Translations under genes and position numbers: made by a program
Part shown: one piece after another, positions 1 to 37,446 of the stretch
Layout: every line of letters starts with the position of its first letter
How positions within the stretch are numbered: position 1 is the first letter of the stretch
Notes under the pieces: generated by a model
The model's database searches: none
Told to the model about the DNA's origin: nothing
What the model saw: the letters and a program-made list of their open reading frames with translations, nothing else
IMG/VR virus record: IMGVR_UViG_3300023174_000014
Coordinates: 1-37,446 of that record
Source: a virus
DNA: 37,446 bases
Direction: 5' to 3' (one strand)

Positions 1-93
1 TTCCGTAATCGCTGTGGGCGGCCACGAGTGCTTCAAAAGTTTTAGGTTCAACCTTCGCTGGTGCTTCAACAACTGGCGAAGCCGAGATGGGCT
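1..93. repeat. Left copy of 93-bp terminal direct repeat
   Basis: These 93 bases are identical to the last 93 bases of the window. The repeat lies inside the protease gene, whose reading frame continues across the join without a break. That is what a circular or circularly permuted assembly looks like when the assembler leaves an overlap. A real short terminal repeat is possible but less likely inside a coding region. Confidence 0.97.
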
Positions 94-1105: not shown

Positions 1106-1573
1106 TTACTTGGCTTTATCTTTAATCGGGCCACCCACAATCCAAGCATCGCAAGTCCTTTTAGCCGCACACTTAAAGTCAAAAATCTCGCAGTAACCTA
1201 GATCGCCACCAACGGCCACCTCGTTTGCGTCCTCTCCGATGCCCTTCTTAATGCACCCTAGAATCTTGCTCCTCTGGTCGAAGGCCGCACAATTACCGCA
1301 AAGCATTTTCTTGGCCGTTACTACATCGCCTTGGAACTCATCTGCCTTGGCTTTCCAGTAATCCTCGTTGGGTTCGTTTGGGTTAGCTGGACCGTAGTTC
1401 GCATCGTCCACGGCTATCTGCCTATTGGCTAGATTTGTTTTGATGTCTTGGGTTGCGATTGGGCAAGATGGCTCTGCTAGTTCTTTGTCCTTTATGCCAT
1501 AAAGACCCTTAAGATATTTACCAAACTCTCTATCGTAGTCCTCTTGATTAAATAATTCTGGTGGGATTATCAT
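1106..1573 (-). CDS. Cysteine-rich protein with HiPIP-like cysteine pattern
   Basis: This 155-residue protein has no function I can assign with certainty. Its second half has a regular cysteine pattern: CGNC followed by AAFD, then ILGC, then GYCEIFDFKC and RTCDAW. A CxxC-aromatic followed by spaced Cys and an aromatic-rich end recalls high-potential iron-sulfur proteins and small zinc-binding proteins. The first half is polar and lacks a signal peptide. The ATG overlaps the portal stop as ATGA, so translation is probably coupled. Its place between portal and protease suggests a head-assembly or minor virion protein. Metal binding is inferred from cysteine spacing only. Confidence 0.75.
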   Translation of the reverse strand: MIIPPELFNQEDYDREFGKYLKGLYGIKDKELAEPSCPIATQDIKTNLANRQIAVDDANYGPANPNEPNEDYWKAKADEFQGDVVTAKKMLCGNCAAFDQRSKILGCIKKGIGEDANEVAVGGDLGYCEIFDFKCAAKRTCDAWIVGGPIKDKAK

Positions 1574-4452
1574 TTTAATTGCGGGCCTCCGTAAAGATCG
1601 TACATATCCATAACACCACTATCATATTTTTTGCCATTGATGTGTCCAGCAAAAACCTCTGCAACAAACTCCATTGGGTTGATTGCCGCATATTCGCTAA
1701 CTTTTTTGGCTATATTTTTTCTATTTTCACCGCTTGTCCCCGGCCCAAACTTTTCAGTTTTATACATTTCAGCATCGTCATACCCTATGTTTTTATGATG
1801 CAAGATATGTCCATATTCGTGAGAAAACACATCATCATTTCCAAGCCATCCCCTTTCTACCATTCTTTTGTTTATGTCTTGGAATCCTCCCTGCCCTTCT
1901 TTGTTATATGCTTTATTAAAATATATTTCTTGGCGGCGAACTTGCCCGTTAATATATGTTGAAGAGGCTTGGGCAACAGTTCCAGAGCTTAAGGTTGCCA
2001 TACCTATTTCAGACGGAGGTGGTATGTCATAACCCTTTGCCTTCAAAAGATCGTATGAAGCACCTATTTTAATTGCCACATCATCATCTACTGGCAACTC
2101 AACACTAGAAAGCCCATCACCTTTCATCTTTTCAACGATTCTAGCCTTGTCTGTTGTTTTCTCCTTTTTGGCTTCTTGTTCTGGTTTGGATGTTGGTGGC
2201 TGTGGTGGCTTAGGAGGTGGGGGTGCGGGGGTTGTGTCTTTTTGTTTTTTGGGCTTCTCTGCTTTCCCTTGAGGTGTTGGCCTCTTATAATCTTTTGGGA
2301 ATTTCCCACCGGGTCGAGTTGGCGTATAGCCTCCCTTAAATGGGGGTCTGCCGTAACCTACTGCACACTTGTTATCTGGCCCGAAAGTGCCACCCTCATC
2401 TTGCCCACAATCCCTGCCAGCAACGAACTCGGTTTTCTTGTCCCTAGCCTCCATCTGTCCGACTACTTTCTTTGCCCAAGAAAAGCCAGCATCCCCGCCC
2501 CATCCATTCCACGCCTGCCAGCCTTTGCCCTGTTCCCCGAAGGTCGCTCCCTTTTTGTCCACTTCGTGCCTATCAAAAAAGGCTTTCATTCTGCGAACTG
2601 TATCGGGAGACATCTTCACCCCATTGATTAAATCCCTAGCTCTAGCGATGCCCACTGGGGTCATTCCCCTTTGGCTGGGTGGTTTCGTCTCCCGCACATC
2701 CAAGGCTCTTTTAGCGGCCTCCCTAGCTCCTTCTGGTGGGGTAAAATCAATCCCATCGTACTTTGCCAACTCAATCCCGCCCATCATTCCCGCAATCAGC
2801 ATCTTGATGGATGCTGGGTCTAGTTTTGCTAGTGCCTCTTCAGTATCTTTTTTTTTAACTTCTAATTCTTCGGAGGATGGTTCGATGGGGTCTTCTGGAA
2901 TTGGCTTCTGGTCGCCTCCCTCATTCTTATCCTCCTCTGGTTTATCCTCTATGGGTGCTACTGGTTTGGGTGCGAGAGCAGGAGGCAGTTGGGGTTGCGG
3001 AGGTGTCGGGGTGACAATATCGGAAATCGTCTCTGGGGCTACGCCATACTTCTGTGCTAAATCCTTTATCAGCTTCGCCTCAATAGCTCTTTGTCGCATA
3101 GCACTTTCAAAATCTTGGCCTCGCTCACTATAAATATCTGCCGCCGTTCGCAAGCCACTCTTAAATTCCGAGATCGCCGACTGGCTGTCCCTAGATAAGT
3201 CTATGGAGACATTCGCCCCGAAATTGAAAATACCCCTTGTAGTTCTGCTCCCAACATTGTTTTCAATCAATCCTCTGGCAACTGCATCGGCGATTACGAT
3301 GTTCTTAATTGGGCGAAGCACCTTATCATCTAGGAGCTTCTGGTATCTGCGGAAGGTGCGCCCTGCTTGTTGCATCTCAAGGCGGGCTGTCGGGCCAGAC
3401 ATAGCAGAAGGGTCGACGGCGAAGCTGTAAGGGATGCCCACGCCTAAGCAAATGTTGCGGAGAAGAATCTTATGGAACTCTGCAAACGCACCGGAGGGAC
3501 GGCTCGGGCCATCGGGGAACACGATATCTTCACCCGGCTCTAGGTAGGAGATTTTGCCAGACTCAATCGCTTCCAGCTTGATTGCGCTTCCGTTAATGTC
3601 TTGATCGTTTGTGAGGCTTGAGAGATCGGAAGCATTGTTGTTATTCCTCTTTATGATTGCGCTCTGGCTAGAAGCAACCTTGGCTGACATCTTCTCGAAG
3701 CCCACGATTTCGTGAATATCCGTTGCGTCATTGATTGCGGTATGGAAAGCGGAGATTCCTCGGTACTGGTCAATGCGGAGTGGGTCGAATAAGTGAAAGG
3801 CTTGGCTTGCGGGAATGGTTGCTTGGAACGAATACATATCGCCAATCGTTCGGCTATAAACATCATAAGCTGTGGGCGAGCCAGTCCTTTGGTCGATATG
3901 GATTCCACCAATTAACTCCGAGCTTGTATAGACCTTGAATGGGTCGCCAAGTCTATCACCCTCAATGCCTTGTATTTTTAAGTTGCCATCTGAATCTCGG
4001 ACTAGGACAAAAAGAAAATCACCATCTCGTAACATCGACATCATCGCCACTTGCATAAGTGTTGAGCCGGTATGCCTTGTGGAGATGTCGCACTTGTCCC
4101 ACCATTCTGCCCAATATGCCTCTACCTCGGTATTGACTTCGGGGTTCTCGGTTCGGGCTTGGTAAGAAATGTTTGCGGCGGTGTGGCTGGCAAACTTCAT
4201 AAGGATGGAGCGGACAAGGCCAACATTCTCGGCCAAGTCCCTCGCCCTTTTCATCAACTCAACTCGGTCATAGTTGGAGCGATAATCTTCCGCACCAGAA
4301 AGCGAACTCGGCCCCTTGCGTTGCCTCGAATACTTTACCGCATCATACTCGAAGTTTTTAATCCTTTGACGAGCAACAAGCCTATCAACTGCGCCCTGAG
4401 GATTTACAAAGGCAATCGCCTTATCGATCAGATTGAGAGAGGCTTTTTTCAC
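1570..4452 (-). CDS. Portal protein (lambda gpB-like) fused to a C-terminal zincin-like domain
   Basis: Residues 1 to about 500 form a portal protein of the lambda gpB type, the ring through which DNA enters and leaves the head. The usual length of this family is about 500-550 residues; this one has 960. After the portal core come a Pro/Glu/Lys-rich linker, a conserved-looking patch (RMKAFFDRHE, then WNGWGGDAGFSWAKK), and a second Pro/Lys-rich linker around 700-770. The final domain carries HEYGH at 878-882 and NPMEFVAEVF near 925-934. This is the pattern of a zinc metalloprotease with a downstream glutamate ligand. The start is GTG and overlaps the gpW-like stop as GTGA. The portal call is strong; protease activity is inferred from the motif. 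Confidence 0.9.
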   Translation of the reverse strand: MKKASLNLIDKAIAFVNPQGAVDRLVARQRIKNFEYDAVKYSRQRKGPSSLSGAEDYRSNYDRVELMKRARDLAENVGLVRSILMKFASHTAANISYQARTENPEVNTEVEAYWAEWWDKCDISTRHTGSTLMQVAMMSMLRDGDFLFVLVRDSDGNLKIQGIEGDRLGDPFKVYTSSELIGGIHIDQRTGSPTAYDVYSRTIGDMYSFQATIPASQAFHLFDPLRIDQYRGISAFHTAINDATDIHEIVGFEKMSAKVASSQSAIIKRNNNNASDLSSLTNDQDINGSAIKLEAIESGKISYLEPGEDIVFPDGPSRPSGAFAEFHKILLRNICLGVGIPYSFAVDPSAMSGPTARLEMQQAGRTFRRYQKLLDDKVLRPIKNIVIADAVARGLIENNVGSRTTRGIFNFGANVSIDLSRDSQSAISEFKSGLRTAADIYSERGQDFESAMRQRAIEAKLIKDLAQKYGVAPETISDIVTPTPPQPQLPPALAPKPVAPIEDKPEEDKNEGGDQKPIPEDPIEPSSEELEVKKKDTEEALAKLDPASIKMLIAGMMGGIELAKYDGIDFTPPEGAREAAKRALDVRETKPPSQRGMTPVGIARARDLINGVKMSPDTVRRMKAFFDRHEVDKKGATFGEQGKGWQAWNGWGGDAGFSWAKKVVGQMEARDKKTEFVAGRDCGQDEGGTFGPDNKCAVGYGRPPFKGGYTPTRPGGKFPKDYKRPTPQGKAEKPKKQKDTTPAPPPPKPPQPPTSKPEQEAKKEKTTDKARIVEKMKGDGLSSVELPVDDDVAIKIGASYDLLKAKGYDIPPPSEIGMATLSSGTVAQASSTYINGQVRRQEIYFNKAYNKEGQGGFQDINKRMVERGWLGNDDVFSHEYGHILHHKNIGYDDAEMYKTEKFGPGTSGENRKNIAKKVSEYAAINPMEFVAEVFAGHINGKKYDSGVMDMYDLYGGPQLK

Positions 4453-4685
4453 GAGCCGAAATTTGCGTAGGTTGTGCGAACCCTAGTGCCAGTCGCTTGT
4501 TGAATGGCTAGGGTCAATTCCATAATCGTATCTCTTACCTCACCGAGATTCGCTCTTGAAAACGAACGACCAGCTATCGAATAGCTTGAACCCGCCACCG
4601 CTATCGCTTCTAGGCAAGTGATATATTTATCACGCAACGAAGTGAGGGTGGCAAGGGGTAGCCCAATGAAATCACCCTTCGCCAT
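4449..4685 (-). CDS. gpW-like head-tail joining protein
   Basis: This small protein (78 residues from the ATG at 4685) lies between the large terminase and the portal, exactly where lambda has W. It starts with MAKGDFIGLPL and contains predicted helices and a small central sheet region, as in gpW proteins that join head and tail at the portal. It overlaps the terminase end by 14 nt and shares GTGA with the portal start. A GTG 12 nt upstream is an alternative start. Identification rests on size, position and general sequence character. Confidence 0.7.
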   Translation of the reverse strand: MAKGDFIGLPLATLTSLRDKYITCLEAIAVAGSSYSIAGRSFSRANLGEVRDTIMELTLAIQQATGTRVRTTYANFGS

Positions 4686-6462
4686 TATCAAACTCACTTT
4701 CTGTCAAACTTGCGGGCGACACTTTCAATCGCCCATACAAAGCCGCCCCCACGATGTTCATACACTCGCAATCCATTAAGTGATTATGCTTTCCGACTTG
4801 CTTCCATACAAGCCTTTCCCTGCCAGTCATAGGATTTTTCACCCTCACCTTCACCTCTGATTCAATATGCACACGCCAAACATCGGGTGTGTCGAGAGCG
4901 ATGTAACCCGGCTCTTTCAATAGATTTGCTAGGATGTCTTTGATGGACGGATTAGACCAACGCCAAACTGGACAGAATTTCCACTTCCAACCAGTTTTCA
5001 ACTGAACAGCCTTACCGCTAAATGGGTCTCCATTTGCAATTCGTGAATATGGGCGTTGCAACTTATGGTCTCCGACTATTTCAGAAAAGCTAGTACGATC
5101 TGAACCAACTAACGCTATCCATCCATTTTTGCAACAATTCAAATAAACATCTCTGGTTTGATCGCCCGAATCGCAGAATACGCATTTGCTTTCAACTCCA
5201 AACTCTTCTGCCTTGGCTTGGATGTCTCCCCAAGTTTCTAGCCTACCTGCCCACACGAGCCTTGACCTACCCTCTAAATCCCAAGCCCTAACAACGCACC
5301 AAGCGTGGAAGCCCCCTGCCTCTTGAATGTCGCAAGCCATAATCAGCTTTTCATTTACTCTGACTTCGCCCATCTTGTAATCACCCGCTACAATTTCCAT
5401 TTTCTCGCTTTCGTGTTCCATCCAAGGCTCGGCAAGAACTCGATTCACGAAGTCTTGTAGCCCTATGATTCCATTGTGCTTATCTTGCAAAAACTTCACC
5501 GCTAAACTCCCAAAGCTAACCCAAGGGGCATATAGGCCGTTGAGATGGTAGGAGCGTCTGGCAGGCTCGCCCTTGGGATTGGTTGCCCTCCACTCCCCCT
5601 CTCGGAGCATCTTGGTTTTCTGGCCGTCTTGAATCTTGCCCTTGCATCCCTCGCACTCATAATAGGTCGAGGATTTCACTAGGGCGTAATCATAAACGCC
5701 ATCTTCTATCTTGGCCGATTCATCCCACTTCACTTGTCCCCAAATTAGTTTTTGTTTTAATCCACAATGGGGGCAAGGCACAAAATAGAAGCGCATATCC
5801 CCCTTCTGCCATTCAGCCCAGATTATTGAGTCGGCAGTTGTCGGGGTGCTGGTTGCTATGATGAGATGGTTGGGATAGGTGCTAACTCTGGCCTCTGCTA
5901 ATTGAACTGGGTTTGCTTCTCGCCCCGACCCCGCTTGTTCTGGGAACTTGTCCACCTCATCCATACAAAGCAAAGCAATCGAGCGACTAGAAAGAGCCGA
6001 GGGGCTAGTGCCAGCCCACCATACCGAGCATCGTTTGAAGTGTTGCTCTAGGATTTTGATTTTGTCGGTGTTGTCTGGTTTCTCTTTCGCAAGGGCTGGG
6101 CAATCGTCAATCATTGGCAACCACCTAGTTTCCGTGAATGATCTAGCTAAATGCTCGCTAGGCATCACCCACAAGGCGGGGCAAGGTCGCTCTGCTATTC
6201 GGTACGCTAGGCCAGCTAGAATCGTTGTGGTCTTACTTGTCTGTGCCCCCCATACCAGCACCACCCTACGAATCGAATCATCGCCAAAAGCCTCTAGGGG
6301 TTCGCGGACATAGGGCGTAAGCGTTGTCGAATACGCACCGGGGATGTTGGTTACTCTTGCCGAAAGTGTGAGGTTTTTTTCTGCCCACTCTGGAATCGAG
6401 AGCTGTTCCCTTGGCTCAAACAAAAGACGAGCAAAGTTCTTGGCCTCATCAATCTGGTTCAC
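4672..6462 (-). CDS. Terminase large subunit (lambda gpA family)
   Basis: This is the ATP-driven motor and nuclease that cuts and packages phage DNA. An N-terminal ATPase has a Walker A variant WGAQTSKTT at about 71-79 and a Walker B stretch IALLCMDEVDKF ending near 172. A zinc-binding pair follows (CPHCG and CEGC). The C-terminal half has the acidic residues of an RNase H-like nuclease, in MACDIQ, FCDSGDQ and MDCEC. From the GTG at 6462 it has 596 residues; this start shares GTGA with the preceding stop and has AAGGG upstream. A GTG three codons earlier is possible. GpA-type terminases usually go with cos packaging. Confidence 0.95.
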   Translation of the reverse strand: MNQIDEAKNFARLLFEPREQLSIPEWAEKNLTLSARVTNIPGAYSTTLTPYVREPLEAFGDDSIRRVVLVWGAQTSKTTTILAGLAYRIAERPCPALWVMPSEHLARSFTETRWLPMIDDCPALAKEKPDNTDKIKILEQHFKRCSVWWAGTSPSALSSRSIALLCMDEVDKFPEQAGSGREANPVQLAEARVSTYPNHLIIATSTPTTADSIIWAEWQKGDMRFYFVPCPHCGLKQKLIWGQVKWDESAKIEDGVYDYALVKSSTYYECEGCKGKIQDGQKTKMLREGEWRATNPKGEPARRSYHLNGLYAPWVSFGSLAVKFLQDKHNGIIGLQDFVNRVLAEPWMEHESEKMEIVAGDYKMGEVRVNEKLIMACDIQEAGGFHAWCVVRAWDLEGRSRLVWAGRLETWGDIQAKAEEFGVESKCVFCDSGDQTRDVYLNCCKNGWIALVGSDRTSFSEIVGDHKLQRPYSRIANGDPFSGKAVQLKTGWKWKFCPVWRWSNPSIKDILANLLKEPGYIALDTPDVWRVHIESEVKVRVKNPMTGRERLVWKQVGKHNHLMDCECMNIVGAALYGRLKVSPASLTESEFDNGEG

Positions 6463-7322
6463 ACCCCACACATCCCTTCTTCACAATGGGGATGATCGCC
6501 ACCAAAAATATCCATCTGCCCCTTATCGAAATCGTCCCTAAAATCTACTTGCTCAATAGGGGTGCAAGACTTGTGGAGGAATGGCGTGGAGTCAAAATTC
6601 TCGCTATTCTTTTTTGCAAGTTGCATATCCTTTTCGAATTGCACGGCTCGCTCAAATGCCTCTGGTTCTTCTTGTTTCAATCGCTTCCATTCCTTGTTTG
6701 AGTGAAATGGGCAATATACGCACGATGATCTTGGTGGTTTTGGGTATCCGTTTCGCTCCATCCATTCCAAGCAACTCTGCCTAGTCATTCGCTTTTCAAT
6801 CAGAGGCCAGCGGCTTTGTGCCCAAGCATCCCTAGAGGGTTTGCACCGATGCCACTCGTCCCAAGAAATACCGATATATTGAGTTACTGAAATATGTTTT
6901 TGCCCCCTCTTAATTTTGCACCTAGCCCTAGCCTCTTTCATAATCGGCTTAATTTTGAAGTCTGCCGTGCAAGACCTAAACACGATTTTACCCAGCTTGC
7001 CCTTGGCACTTTTGGTAAAGAATGGAATGTTCGTTCTGCTGAACTTGCGGCCATCTTTTGTCACCCTCATTTTTAATGATTCTTTTGAAAGACTCCCAGC
7101 CGTTACTATATAAACCGGGTATGGCAACAATGCCTTTAACTGCTCTAGCCATTTATAGACGCTCTCTGGTTCGTCTTGCGTATCAGAGAAAATAGCAAAG
7201 TCTGGCATAGGGGAGATTTCCCCCCTCGCACACATCAAGGCTAGGCAACTAGACTGAACCCCAGCACCAAGAGAAATGATGTTGTATTCTGTCTTTATGT
7301 CTGGTTCGATTAGTGGATTCAT
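6459..7322 (-). CDS. PP-loop ATPase, phage PAPS-reductase-like (copy 1)
   Basis: This 287-residue protein belongs to the adenine nucleotide alpha-hydrolase/PAPS reductase superfamily. The nucleotide-binding PP-loop is SLGAGVQSS at residues 17-25, followed by FSDTQDEP. A Cys-containing segment (RSCTADFKIKP, about 116-126), IGISWDEWHR and the pair SSCVYCP (Cys201, Cys204) suggest a metal or Fe-S site. The same elements occur in the protein at 7621-8373, so the two are paralogues. The ATG at 7322 shares ATGA with the HNH stop. An in-frame start 24 codons upstream would lie inside the HNH gene and is unlikely. The substrate is unknown; DNA or nucleotide modification is one possibility. Confidence 0.85.
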   Translation of the reverse strand: MNPLIEPDIKTEYNIISLGAGVQSSCLALMCARGEISPMPDFAIFSDTQDEPESVYKWLEQLKALLPYPVYIVTAGSLSKESLKMRVTKDGRKFSRTNIPFFTKSAKGKLGKIVFRSCTADFKIKPIMKEARARCKIKRGQKHISVTQYIGISWDEWHRCKPSRDAWAQSRWPLIEKRMTRQSCLEWMERNGYPKPPRSSCVYCPFHSNKEWKRLKQEEPEAFERAVQFEKDMQLAKKNSENFDSTPFLHKSCTPIEQVDFRDDFDKGQMDIFGGDHPHCEEGMCGV

Positions 7323-7624
7323 CTCTTGACCAAATAATCTTTTGCATACGCCCAAGCGGGGTTCAAATGGATTTGATGATGGCACTCGAAGCACACCGCC
7401 AAAAAGAACTCTACCTCGTTGAGCCTATCCCCAAATCTTCCTCGCCTATGGTGAACTTGGCTCGCCATCTTGCATTTGCACACTTGGCAGACTGGATTAT
7501 TGGTTAGAAACTTCTCTCGCACATCTTTATAGACTTCGTTCTGGCCTTTTCTTTTTGCAGATACTCGGCGTAGTTTCCCGCCTCGCTTGAGTGGGGTTTT
7601 GCGTTTAAGTGGAGAGCGTTTCAT
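7319..7624 (-). CDS. HNH endonuclease
   Basis: This is a small HNH nuclease of 101 residues. The N-terminus is very basic (MKRSPLKRKTPLKRGG) and probably contacts DNA. The zinc-binding and catalytic part shows CQVCKCK, then VHHRRGR, then CFECHHQIH. It is joined by ATGA overlaps to PP-loop genes on both sides. In cos phages such as HK97, an HNH protein next to the terminase genes takes part in cutting and packaging DNA. The same role is likely here because it lies between the two terminase genes. A free homing-type nuclease is the alternative. Confidence 0.9.
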   Translation of the reverse strand: MKRSPLKRKTPLKRGGKLRRVSAKRKGQNEVYKDVREKFLTNNPVCQVCKCKMASQVHHRRGRFGDRLNEVEFFLAVCFECHHQIHLNPAWAYAKDYLVKR

Positions 7625-8373
7625 CCGTCATAGCATCCACAAGGAACTTCATCTGGCAAGTCCTCAAATAATTTCATTTGGCTTGCATCCGACTTAATTA
7701 AGTCCTCCCATTTCCAATTTCTCCCAAGTCCAATAACGCTTGTGAGATGGGCATTGTTTTCCATCCTTACTGCTCTTTCTGCAAGTTCTGGATGATTTTT
7801 AACTAGACTCAAAACCTCGTGCTTTTTCATAGCTGGGCAAAAGAAGCAAGATGATTTTGCTGGTGCAAATCCAGCACTTTTCACAACATCAATGCACTTG
7901 CTCCGATTCCATCCCCAACGGACAAGTGGATATTCGTAAATATATTTTTTGTCATCATAGAACTTAACTCGGTGAGACTCCCCGGCATCATAGCCAATAA
8001 GTTTCAAAACCTTGCCGCCCGCCTTCCACGCTTCTTTAGATGCTTCCCAGTTATTGCAAAACTTGTCTTGGGGTTGGATTTTATATTTCTGCGAACATCC
8101 CTTAAAACCATAGGCCAAGCTCGGCAACATTTTCTGTCGCAAGCAATTCTCTTCTAGGGTTTCTTTTTTATATTTTACTGTCTGTATTTCTGGCATTTGT
8201 CTTTCCACTAGCCACTTGCTGAATGTATCGACAAACTCATAAGTCTCTGGAAGCTCGCCACCAGTATCAGCAAACAGAATAAGGTCTGGAACAACTCCCC
8301 GCTTTTGCATTTCAATGAGCATAGCGGCAGAGTTTGTTCCTCCACCAAAAGCAACAACGCAAGGAGTTTTCAT
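7621..8373 (-). CDS. PP-loop ATPase, phage PAPS-reductase-like (copy 2)
   Basis: This 250-residue protein is a paralogue of the one at 6459-7322. The PP-loop is AFGGGTNSAAM at about 8-18, followed by FADTGGELPET. Later come KGCSQKYKIQP, IGYDAGESHR, the tyrosine-rich YEYPLVRWGWNR and the Cys pair SSCFFCP. A further Cys pair (CGCYDG) ends the protein and is absent from copy 1. The ATG shares ATGA with a 24-codon upstream gene, and the stop shares ATGA with HNH. Having two such enzymes around an HNH gene inside a terminase operon is unusual. The reaction is unknown. Confidence 0.85.
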   Translation of the reverse strand: MKTPCVVAFGGGTNSAAMLIEMQKRGVVPDLILFADTGGELPETYEFVDTFSKWLVERQMPEIQTVKYKKETLEENCLRQKMLPSLAYGFKGCSQKYKIQPQDKFCNNWEASKEAWKAGGKVLKLIGYDAGESHRVKFYDDKKYIYEYPLVRWGWNRSKCIDVVKSAGFAPAKSSCFFCPAMKKHEVLSLVKNHPELAERAVRMENNAHLTSVIGLGRNWKWEDLIKSDASQMKLFEDLPDEVPCGCYDG

Positions 8374-35883: not shown

Positions 35884-36846
35884 TTAGCTGTAAGTCGTGG
35901 TGATACGGACGGCGGCGTTCGCATCAATGACTTTCTCGGCTGTGTTCATGCGAACACGGAGAACATTGGAGCGACGAGCCTCGTCACGATAGCTCTCGGA
36001 GACGAAACCACCGGGAGCGTCATCAGACCAGACCAAGGTGCGTCCTAATCCACCAGCGGTGAACTGACCGCCAGCAACATTGGCAACAACGATCTTGGTA
36101 TCGGGAACAATGAACGAGCCAGAGTAGCTCTTGTTCTTGTTTGCTGTGTTGTAAGCCGCGCGGCCGATGTAGACATTATCCACACCAAACGCTTCTGCAA
36201 TCTGCTTTTCATCGAGCAAGCGACCACCAGTATTCGACACAACTCCGTAGAATTGATTTTGTAGGAGGGTGGTACGACGAACTCTCTCATATACATTGGC
36301 ACTCATTATGACGGCGTTTGCCGCATAGCCTAATTTATTAAGAGCCAATTTGCCAGCCGCAACGTCCGCAGGGGCGTTGATGGTTGCCAAGTTGCCTTCG
36401 ATGTAGGAAGCCGTAGGGCTAATGTCAGTCGTGGTGAAGGGAGTCGTTGTTGCCCAGAGCAAGTCAGCCACCCGCTTTTCGTGGGAGAGCTTAACTTGGC
36501 GGAGCAAGAACTTGGCAGTTTCGCTTTCCAGCGAAAAAAACCTGTTTGCATCCTGCTTGAAACTATCGTCAATTAGCTCTTCCAAGCCGGTTTCGATACA
36601 ATCGTAGGTATCACTTGTGAATTTCCGAACCGCACGAGCGTATTCAGAACCAGCAGTACGCTTGGCCGCATCAGCATTGAGGATGTCGGCATCGGCTGTC
36701 TGCACTTTGAGATACACGCCACTCTTTGCCGATACTGGCAAGAGAGGGAGAATGTCTGCACCGATCAAGCCGATCTCTGCGGGGGCTTCGATGAGGGCTT
36801 GGTTAATATCGGCACGAATGGTCGTGCCACCAGAAATAAAGCTCAT
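35884..36846 (-). CDS. Major capsid protein (lambda gpE-like position)
   Basis: This 320-residue protein lies directly after the decoration gene and before a strong terminator, as expected for a highly expressed capsid gene. It has the alpha/beta pattern of HK97-fold capsid proteins. The N-terminal arm is at 1-40, a helix-rich spine contains FFSLESETAKFLLRQVKLSH, and later comes LNKLGYAANAVIMSANVYER. No fused protease or scaffold is visible; these come from the gene upstream. Identity is supported by order and fold-like pattern. Confidence 0.85.
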   Translation of the reverse strand: MSFISGGTTIRADINQALIEAPAEIGLIGADILPLLPVSAKSGVYLKVQTADADILNADAAKRTAGSEYARAVRKFTSDTYDCIETGLEELIDDSFKQDANRFFSLESETAKFLLRQVKLSHEKRVADLLWATTTPFTTTDISPTASYIEGNLATINAPADVAAGKLALNKLGYAANAVIMSANVYERVRRTTLLQNQFYGVVSNTGGRLLDEKQIAEAFGVDNVYIGRAAYNTANKNKSYSGSFIVPDTKIVVANVAGGQFTAGGLGRTLVWSDDAPGGFVSESYRDEARRSNVLRVRMNTAEKVIDANAAVRITTTYS

Positions 36847-37264: not shown

Positions 37265-37446
37265 TTAGAGTTTGGTAATACCACGAGACAGAGCCTCGGA
37301 GTATTCTTTGGGGTTAGACAGCATCACGGCTTGCATAGCCTTGAGCTTTGAAGTTCCGTAATCGCTGTGGGCGGCCACGAGTGCTTCAAAAGTTTTAGGT
37401 TCAACCTTCGCTGGTGCTTCAACAACTGGCGAAGCCGAGATGGGCT
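37265..37446 (-). CDS. Prohead protease/scaffold, 3' part (same gene as 1-1084)
   Basis: This piece holds the C-terminal end of the protease/scaffold gene, with its TAA stop at 37265-37267. Its upstream 93 bases duplicate bases 1-93. The predicted tail is short, charged and probably helical, ending in GITKL. The decoration protein gene starts 19 nt further on, after the ribosome site AAGGAT. Confidence 0.85.
   Translation of the reverse strand, partial: PISASPVVEAPAKVEPKTFEALVAAHSDYGTSKLKAMQAVMLSNPKEYSEALSRGITKL
37354..37446. repeat. Right copy of 93-bp terminal direct repeat
   Basis: Exact copy of the first 93 bases. Removing one copy gives a 37,353-bp circle and restores one uninterrupted protease/scaffold gene. 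Confidence 0.97.

Follow-up and report, generated by a model that had tools for sequence, protein, structure and literature searches.

A lambda-family phage portal protein with a predicted zincin tail, one of a set of C-terminal domains exchanged on closely related portals

Why would a phage portal protein carry a domain that resembles a protease? The question is raised by the IMG/VR virus record IMGVR_UViG_3300023174_000014, analysed over positions 1 to 37,446 (this whole stretch is named the window). Its minus strand encodes a portal protein of 960 amino acids (positions 1570–4452, GTG initiation codon) with a C-terminal enzyme tail. The answer proposed here is that the tail, a predicted zincin, is probably an interchangeable effector that the head stores at the portal and that is delivered together with the DNA.

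The portal core (residues 54–371; positions 3340–4293, minus strand) belongs to the lambda family, as it matches Phage_portal_2 (PF05136; E 1.5e-54) with 186 bits against a curated cut-off of 32.9. The narrower NCBIfam equivalog TIGR01539 was also found (E 1.4e-38), yet its 132.6 bits lie under the cut-off of 172.7. Residues 1–492 match the PHROG portal family phrog_21 (E 3.9e-60), and no MuF domain was present among the matches of the protein in Pfam, PHROG and NCBIfam. The core is followed by a Pro-rich stretch, a module named T (residues 541–673) and a short Cys/Gly motif named D, here of type D1 (681–697). Another Pro-rich linker then leads to the zincin (771–960). A preliminary description, made from the letters of the window, had pointed out Pro/Lys-rich linkers and a length nearly twice the usual one; both are found, lambda gpB being modelled to residue 511 with 20 more C-terminal residues unseen. 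The crown of the lambda portal, which has 12 copies of the protein, is its C-terminal domain (PMC10721106; this and the other papers are cited from excerpts of their text). A frameshift or an assembly chimera is unlikely to lie behind the portal-zincin fusion because a separately assembled contig (L002) encodes this protein too, with identity at 937 of 950 residues and throughout the tail. The crown of portals faces the head interior. Since the tail follows the crown end, the 470 extra residues would on that basis hang into the capsid, which corrects the earlier placement of the enzyme at the DNA exit.

The region first assigned to the enzyme (1570–2500) corresponds to residues 651–960; the enzyme itself takes up only about residues 771–960 (190 amino acids; positions 1573–2142, minus strand) according to an AlphaFold2 model and its structural matches. 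HEYGH (residues 878–882; 1807–1821, minus strand), which would provide two zinc ligands and the catalytic Glu, was confirmed as the sole HExxH of the portal. It is followed by Y921, E928 and E932, Y921 being the candidate oxyanion-hole Tyr and E928 the candidate third zinc ligand (Y921 to E928, positions 1669–1692, minus strand). Shuffling of the last 190 residues (20,000 draws) produced HExxH in 0.7% of cases and the full pattern HExxH...Y-x6-E-x3-E in 0.01%; shuffling of the whole portal (5,000 draws) produced HExxH in 1.2%.

The best of five models of the domain has a mean predicted local distance difference test score (pLDDT) of 88.7 and a predicted template modelling score of 0.86. HEYGH (108–112 in domain numbering) is borne by a helix (105–130), the position of the active-site helix of zincins. 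In a structural comparison with VIA-align the 22 top-ranking rows all belong to lethal factor or to Pro-Pro endopeptidases (PPEPs), with Z from 9.9 to 6.8; the lethal-factor catalytic domains come first (Z 9.9, 158 residues, 3.7 Å) and the PPEPs lie at Z 6.8–7.5, values below 8 being, by the program's own note, weak and possibly due only to a common arrangement. Foldseek against the PDB gave weak matches, none below 1e-3, the best one being the putative zinc peptidase 4l7a (E 8.7e-3), while among the viral models of BFVD phage minor capsid proteins rank first (E 8.7e-7) and proteins labelled 'Lethal factor' are found shortly behind them. At the sequence level residues 771–960 match PHROG families weakly ('virion structural protein', 1.2e-4; 'peptidase', 2.7e-3) and no Pfam family at E ≤ 1, the ATLF profile PF07737 included; a PDB search with the zincin profile returned 4l7a alone (E 0.52). 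The likeness to lethal factor and PPEPs is thus one of predicted fold, of HExxH and of the Tyr that precedes the third Glu, with 11–19% sequence identity to the window zincin. The spacing Y-x6-E is also that of lethal factor and PPEP-1. An oxyanion-hole Tyr is described for PPEP-1, PPEP-2 and PPEP-3 (PMC12828418).

HExxH is kept in 56 of 56 zincin open reading frames (ORFs) found by profile, duplicates included, the profile itself having been built from HExxH-bearing rows. The full HExxH...Y-x6-E-x3-E pattern is kept in 36 of 36 distinct relatives, although one search for relatives used HEY[GA]H among two patterns, so that motif conservation is there not fully independent. The 13 zincin ORFs in loci picked by their portal core also all retain HExxH. 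The ratio of nonsynonymous to synonymous substitution (dN/dS) has a median of 0.14 and a maximum of 0.46 (53 of 325 pairs, with dS 0.1–1.5). The domain is under purifying selection with its catalytic residues conserved, and it looks like an active enzyme as far as its sequence tells. The proposed fusion of the portal to a zincin is therefore borne out by motif and predicted fold: the model matches known zincins, no homologue without HExxH turned up, and Tyr921 and Glu928 fit the anthrax-lethal-factor/PPEP type (M34), with Y-x6-E present in all 36 relatives.

The tail is not a fixed part of this portal. A search with the portal core yielded 206 relatives, from which the most similar 80 were kept. 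Together with the window these make 81 rows, 68 with a readable tail; 13 ended before the tail and were excluded from the label counts, and some cargo-bearing rows also stop at the contig edge. With cargo classes defined from these same 80 loci, 39 of the 68 portals bear a recognised cargo and 29 do not. There are 15 tail states, counting absence of cargo and two combinations. The window-type zincin is found on 13 portals and 13 other states on 26 (coiled coil on seven; ZN3, EESAH and ARTa on three each; ARTb on two; eight singletons). These assignments differ in kind: the names JAMM, ParB-like, nucleotidyltransferase, PARP-like, ZN3, ZN4 and some of the ADP-ribosyltransferase (ART)-like ones rest partly on motifs read by eye, and those of the coiled-coil (CC) and U54 inserts are descriptive labels without assignment. 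An Alt-like ART was identified on the L082 portal (phrog_832, 3.7e-5). The Pfam matches of alternative cargos are mostly under the cut-off (Prok-JAB 0.24, Peptidase_Mx 0.047, ADPrib_exo_Tox 0.0037, KptA-type 0.2, NTP_transf_5 0.013); the ARTa cargo and the tails of L056, L057 and L059 have no Pfam match. The EESAH domains (L025, L030, L033) were considered as degenerate zincins and left without assignment.

At least 31 tail changes are needed on the core tree against 36.9 (standard deviation 1.3) with shuffled labels, none of 300 shuffles needing 31 or fewer. Cargo thus shows slight inheritance along the tree and frequent exchange. The exchange is most direct in six IMG/VR pairs whose cores are 97.3–99.4%, T modules 90–94% and D1 regions 94–98% identical, each opposing a window-type zincin to an unrelated ART-like domain or to a different zincin. 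In the pair L044 (zincin) and L041 (ART-like) the identities are 99.4% for the core, 92.6% for T and 96% for D1; the other pairs are L048/L057, L058/L059, L040/L059, L034/L085 and L082/L083. The nearest relative of the window after its twin (L020) is 97% identical in core and in T, and carries no zincin. The tails of these loci read as a cassette zone flanked by two conserved elements, on one side the portal core and on the other the gene of a presumed head protease. In this zone a T-D1-zincin unit (L017) and a T-R-D-JAMM-like unit (L008) are found as separate genes behind the portal, which argues that T, D and cargo can be transferred together. D2-type cargo is also found between core and T, and the portals of L017 and L024 have two cargo domains each. 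Judged on sequence, this arrangement of a variable C-terminal domain on a conserved carrier would be that of MuF polymorphic toxins. In L017 (91–4796) the portal zone encodes three different HExxH domains, two on the portal and one on the separate T-D1 gene.

Module T (positions 2434–2832, minus strand) is a portable helical module that matches phrog_2859 (function unknown; E 2.1e-23). Its AlphaFold2 model has a pLDDT of 90.5, with no clear fold match in the PDB (nothing above Z 4.7). T was found in 77 phage records; among the 60 listed some of the proteins are annotated as portal, head protease, capsid or minor head protein and many as hypothetical. The D1 motif DCGxxxGGTFGPxNxC (2362–2412, minus strand) directly precedes the exchangeable tail. 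A scan for it listed 80 of 82 stretches, 63 of them distinct after the motif and 59 complete enough for use. Of these motif-chosen tails 57 have T upstream and 50 a portal core; 26 are window-type zincins, 21 ART-like domains, eight members of a second zincin family (one of them bearing an additional insert) and four unknown.

The D2 motif was found in at least 126 ORFs. Of the ones listed, 36 have a lambda-type core, 50 are assigned to HK97-type portals with a local profile, one has the presumed protease and 39 are others, some short or cut off. Pfam confirmed PF04860 in nine of ten HK97-type candidates tested and also in L208. The HK97-type portals include one with an ART tail (L134; PF03496, 3.4e-15) and one with a zeta-toxin tail (L236, 3252–5906; PF06414, 8.3e-29). 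In L236 the tail has a second match, to phrog_16619, a family of minor head proteins (6.5e-41). Matches of L134 and L196 to phrog_595 ('head maturation protease') fall on their ART-like ends and were not used as evidence. A tblastn search of phage records with the D2 motif alone found nothing, the query being probably too short to be informative. We put forward only tentatively, and as less than even in likelihood, that portals of at least two families (PF05136, PF04860) are a general polymorphic delivery platform in which cargo docks by the D motif and is swapped by recombination, the PPEP-like zincin cutting its own Pro-Pro linker and leaving with the DNA.

The zincin itself is reused on other carriers. 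Related domains occur on a MuF protein of Hardycor1 (tblastn 2e-6; MuF domain PF04233, 4.7e-16), on a Mu-type portal of BLv36 (tblastn 6e-4; PF06074, 1.1e-6) and on the HK97-type portals L195 and L208 (PF04860). Hardycor1 and BLv36 are isolated haloarchaeal viruses. Related zincins are also found as separate proteins, a 'putative low copy number virion structural protein' in Brevibacillus phage Jenst and an 'endopeptidase' among non-structural genes in Pseudomonas phage PaBG. L130, taken by eye for MuF-like, is not counted as Pfam finds no MuF domain in it. No relative of portal core or zincin was detected in one genome each of 84,980 species, a search that needs exact short peptides and misses distant ones.

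The zincin is thus most likely one of several interchangeable cargo domains attached to the portal at its head-side end. With twelve subunits per portal, some twelve copies would lie in the capsid next to the packaged DNA. Module T and motif D together would serve as the attachment behind which recombination swaps zincins, ART-like domains and others. The cargo would most likely be cut loose or unfolded, exit with the DNA and act on host proteins as infection starts. We infer in this way its location in the mature head, its release, ejection, proteolytic activity and target. The preliminary description had offered two roles, processing of head proteins, or injection and action in the host, and we infer that the second is the better one.

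Several points weigh against an exchangeable virion-carried effector. Absence of recognised cargo on 29 of the 68 portals indicates that it is dispensable. The zincin is not tied to head proteins, to judge from the Jenst and PaBG domains that stand alone. A folded domain of 190 residues would need to pass portal and tail channel, and its release by cleavage is assumed. No immunity gene was seen next door, unlike with MuF toxins. No family of Pfam or NCBIfam reaches its cut-off with the zincin, the five models of the domain vary in mean pLDDT (66.9–88.7), and Z values below 8 are weak. The neighbouring gene, moreover, is no proven protease.

A different role for the zincin could be to cut mainly the Pro-Pro-rich linker (about residues 731–770; positions 2143–2262, minus strand), its own or that of a neighbour, and so to free the tail, the freed zincin possibly acting in the host. 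Zincins were proposed to process multidomain injected proteins (Iyer 2017, PMC5512222), and PPEPs are among the nearest solved folds (Z 6.8–7.5), which makes self-cleavage a real possibility, although such Z values may reflect only a common arrangement. The linker was measured from the conserved end of D1 to the start of the zincin, or over 45 residues for other tails. At least two Pro-Pro pairs are found in it for 30 of 34 zincin tails and for none of the 25 other D1 tails (Fisher 8e-13; the rows being related, counts by cargo cluster are fairer, 8 of 9 against 0 of 9), and at least one pair precedes 31 of the 34 and four of the 25. However, the linker may simply be carried along when cargo moves. 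It lacks Pro-Pro pairs in one zincin cluster of three (L274, L289, L301), in the D2-type zincins ZN3 and ZN4, and in the zincins of Hardycor1, BLv36, L195 and L208 (in L208, after the D motif), and ART tails would require another exit. As the main function we regard self-release as rather unlikely. The Pro-rich stretch right after the core is common to zincin, other-cargo and cargo-free portals (in rows where its anchor motif was found).

Cleavage of head or scaffold proteins during assembly by a head-maturation zincin would agree with its fusion to the portal and with the suspected maturation role of a conserved zincin in Group 1 jumbo phages (PMC7824862). The presumed head protease encoded next door has no family match and a second maturation activity is unproven, which leaves room for such a role. 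Yet portals whose cores are 97–99% identical end in an ART-like domain, in a different zincin or in nothing recognised as an enzyme, and the enzyme changes while the adjoining head genes stay alike. A maturation protease would hardly be swapped among near-identical portals. The processing of head proteins first suggested is for these reasons disfavoured and a maturation role unlikely, in favour of an exchangeable effector.

The variable, toxin-like C-terminal domains could also be those of a polymorphic toxin of the classical kind, directed at competitors or lysogens and paired with immunity, as in MuF toxins. The portal-core set has 15 loci in which a portal with a D1 zincin or ART and the presumed protease lie on one contig. 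In all 15 only a C/R-module gene (the modules are described below) separates the two, with gaps around it of at most 22 bases whatever the cargo, leaving no room for another gene. In a larger set, duplicates included, 47 of 49 loci have a C/R-module gene there; the exceptions, a zincin locus and a ZN2 locus, have gaps of 518 and 271 bases without an assigned gene. No prophage was found in the pattern-limited search of 84,980 species' genomes and no integrase among 25 window ORFs tested (Pfam, PHROG). A toxin-immunity pair is accordingly very unlikely, although its immunity gene could lie elsewhere. An inactive structural spacer or DNA-binding domain is the least probable option, hardly credible given catalytic residues invariant in 36 of 36 relatives, a low dN/dS and the replacement of the zincin by unrelated enzyme-like domains.

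The closest known systems are the MuF polymorphic toxins (Jamet 2017, PMC5576092; Bxa, PMC11699363), in which a head protein has an exchangeable C-terminal toxin domain whose entry into the host with the DNA was proposed. The likeness extends to the related zincin on the Hardycor1 MuF protein and, by structure, to minor capsid proteins. The differences are that the carrier here is the portal, present in 12 copies in lambda while the SPP1 MuF protein is in one to two, that the next gene in the window is module C instead of an immunity gene, and that no prophage was found in the pattern-limited search. Fusions of PBECR RNase and 2H domains to MuF proteins and portals, and of Nudix domains to MuF, portal and head protease, were reported and proposed to be packaged and injected (Iyer 2017, PMC5512222; NAD+-ADPr survey, PMC9503650). 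The excerpts of these two papers mention no portal zincin, no exchange on near-identical portals and no D or T modules. Polyvalent proteins (Iyer 2017) have several effector domains per injected polypeptide; the window portal has one enzyme, the portals of L017 and L024 two cargo domains each. T4 Alt is a virion-packaged enzyme injected with the DNA (PMC5512222). Alt-like ARTs are among the alternative portal cargos found here. T4 Alt itself is not known as a portal fusion. Published cases already include MuF toxins as well as portals fused to RNase, 2H, Nudix and ART domains. Excerpts of open-licence PMC text on portal-borne effectors, MuF and polyvalent proteins showed neither a zincin on a portal nor portal tails exchanged in the present way, which suggests that the new elements are the zincin on a portal and the swapping of cargo on near-identical portals, a portal version of polymorphic head-borne effectors. 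Portals are generally regarded as conserved gates for DNA. Should the inner end of the portal bear enzymes that can be exchanged, one of the best conserved phage proteins would be a delivery vehicle too and lambda-type phages would have an equivalent of MuF toxins. The D motif would then offer a way to search for many early effectors so far unrecognised, some possibly countering host defence.

The ends of the window (1–93 and 37354–37446) are the same 93 bases, which makes it likely that the window is an entire genome (about 37.4 kb) or a circular assembly, opened inside a gene. The minus strand encodes the small terminase (phrog_57), the large terminase of lambda gpA type (4672–6471; PF05876, E 3e-62; PF20454, E 2.9e-15), an ORF of 82 amino acids, the portal, a Cys-rich gene of 155 amino acids and the conserved gene that spans the contig ends (2–1105, minus strand). 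The major head protein matches phrog_1005 (35884–36846). The gene across the contig ends is presumed to encode the head maturation protease by position and inspection by eye. It is 85–99% identical across relatives and was found in 60 of the 80 loci, the other 20 contigs stopping before reaching it. Its product has no family match (best Pfam 0.11, PHROG 0.13, NCBIfam 0.33), nor does it resemble the CRP-811 protease-capsid protein (E 1.1). The gene appears to accept inserts too, as L060 (5590–7095) and L062 (2827–4332) hold a D2-like motif plus an extra domain within it.

The Cys-rich gene (1106–1573, minus strand) is module C, with the pattern CPIATQDIK...CGNCAAF...CDAW and no match in Pfam or PHROG; in many relatives it is fused into the portal or a neighbour. 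Its Cys pattern is reminiscent of that of high-potential iron-sulphur proteins. Module R (KAPTLGALKKVFRRGAGAFSTSFRP...WAMARVNKFL) is conserved and in many cases forms the end of the portal or of the gene after it, as in the C-terminal part of L009 3726–6536. Between the terminase subunits of the window two adjoining genes (6459–7394 and 7621–8373) both match phosphoadenosine phosphosulfate reductase (phrog_424).

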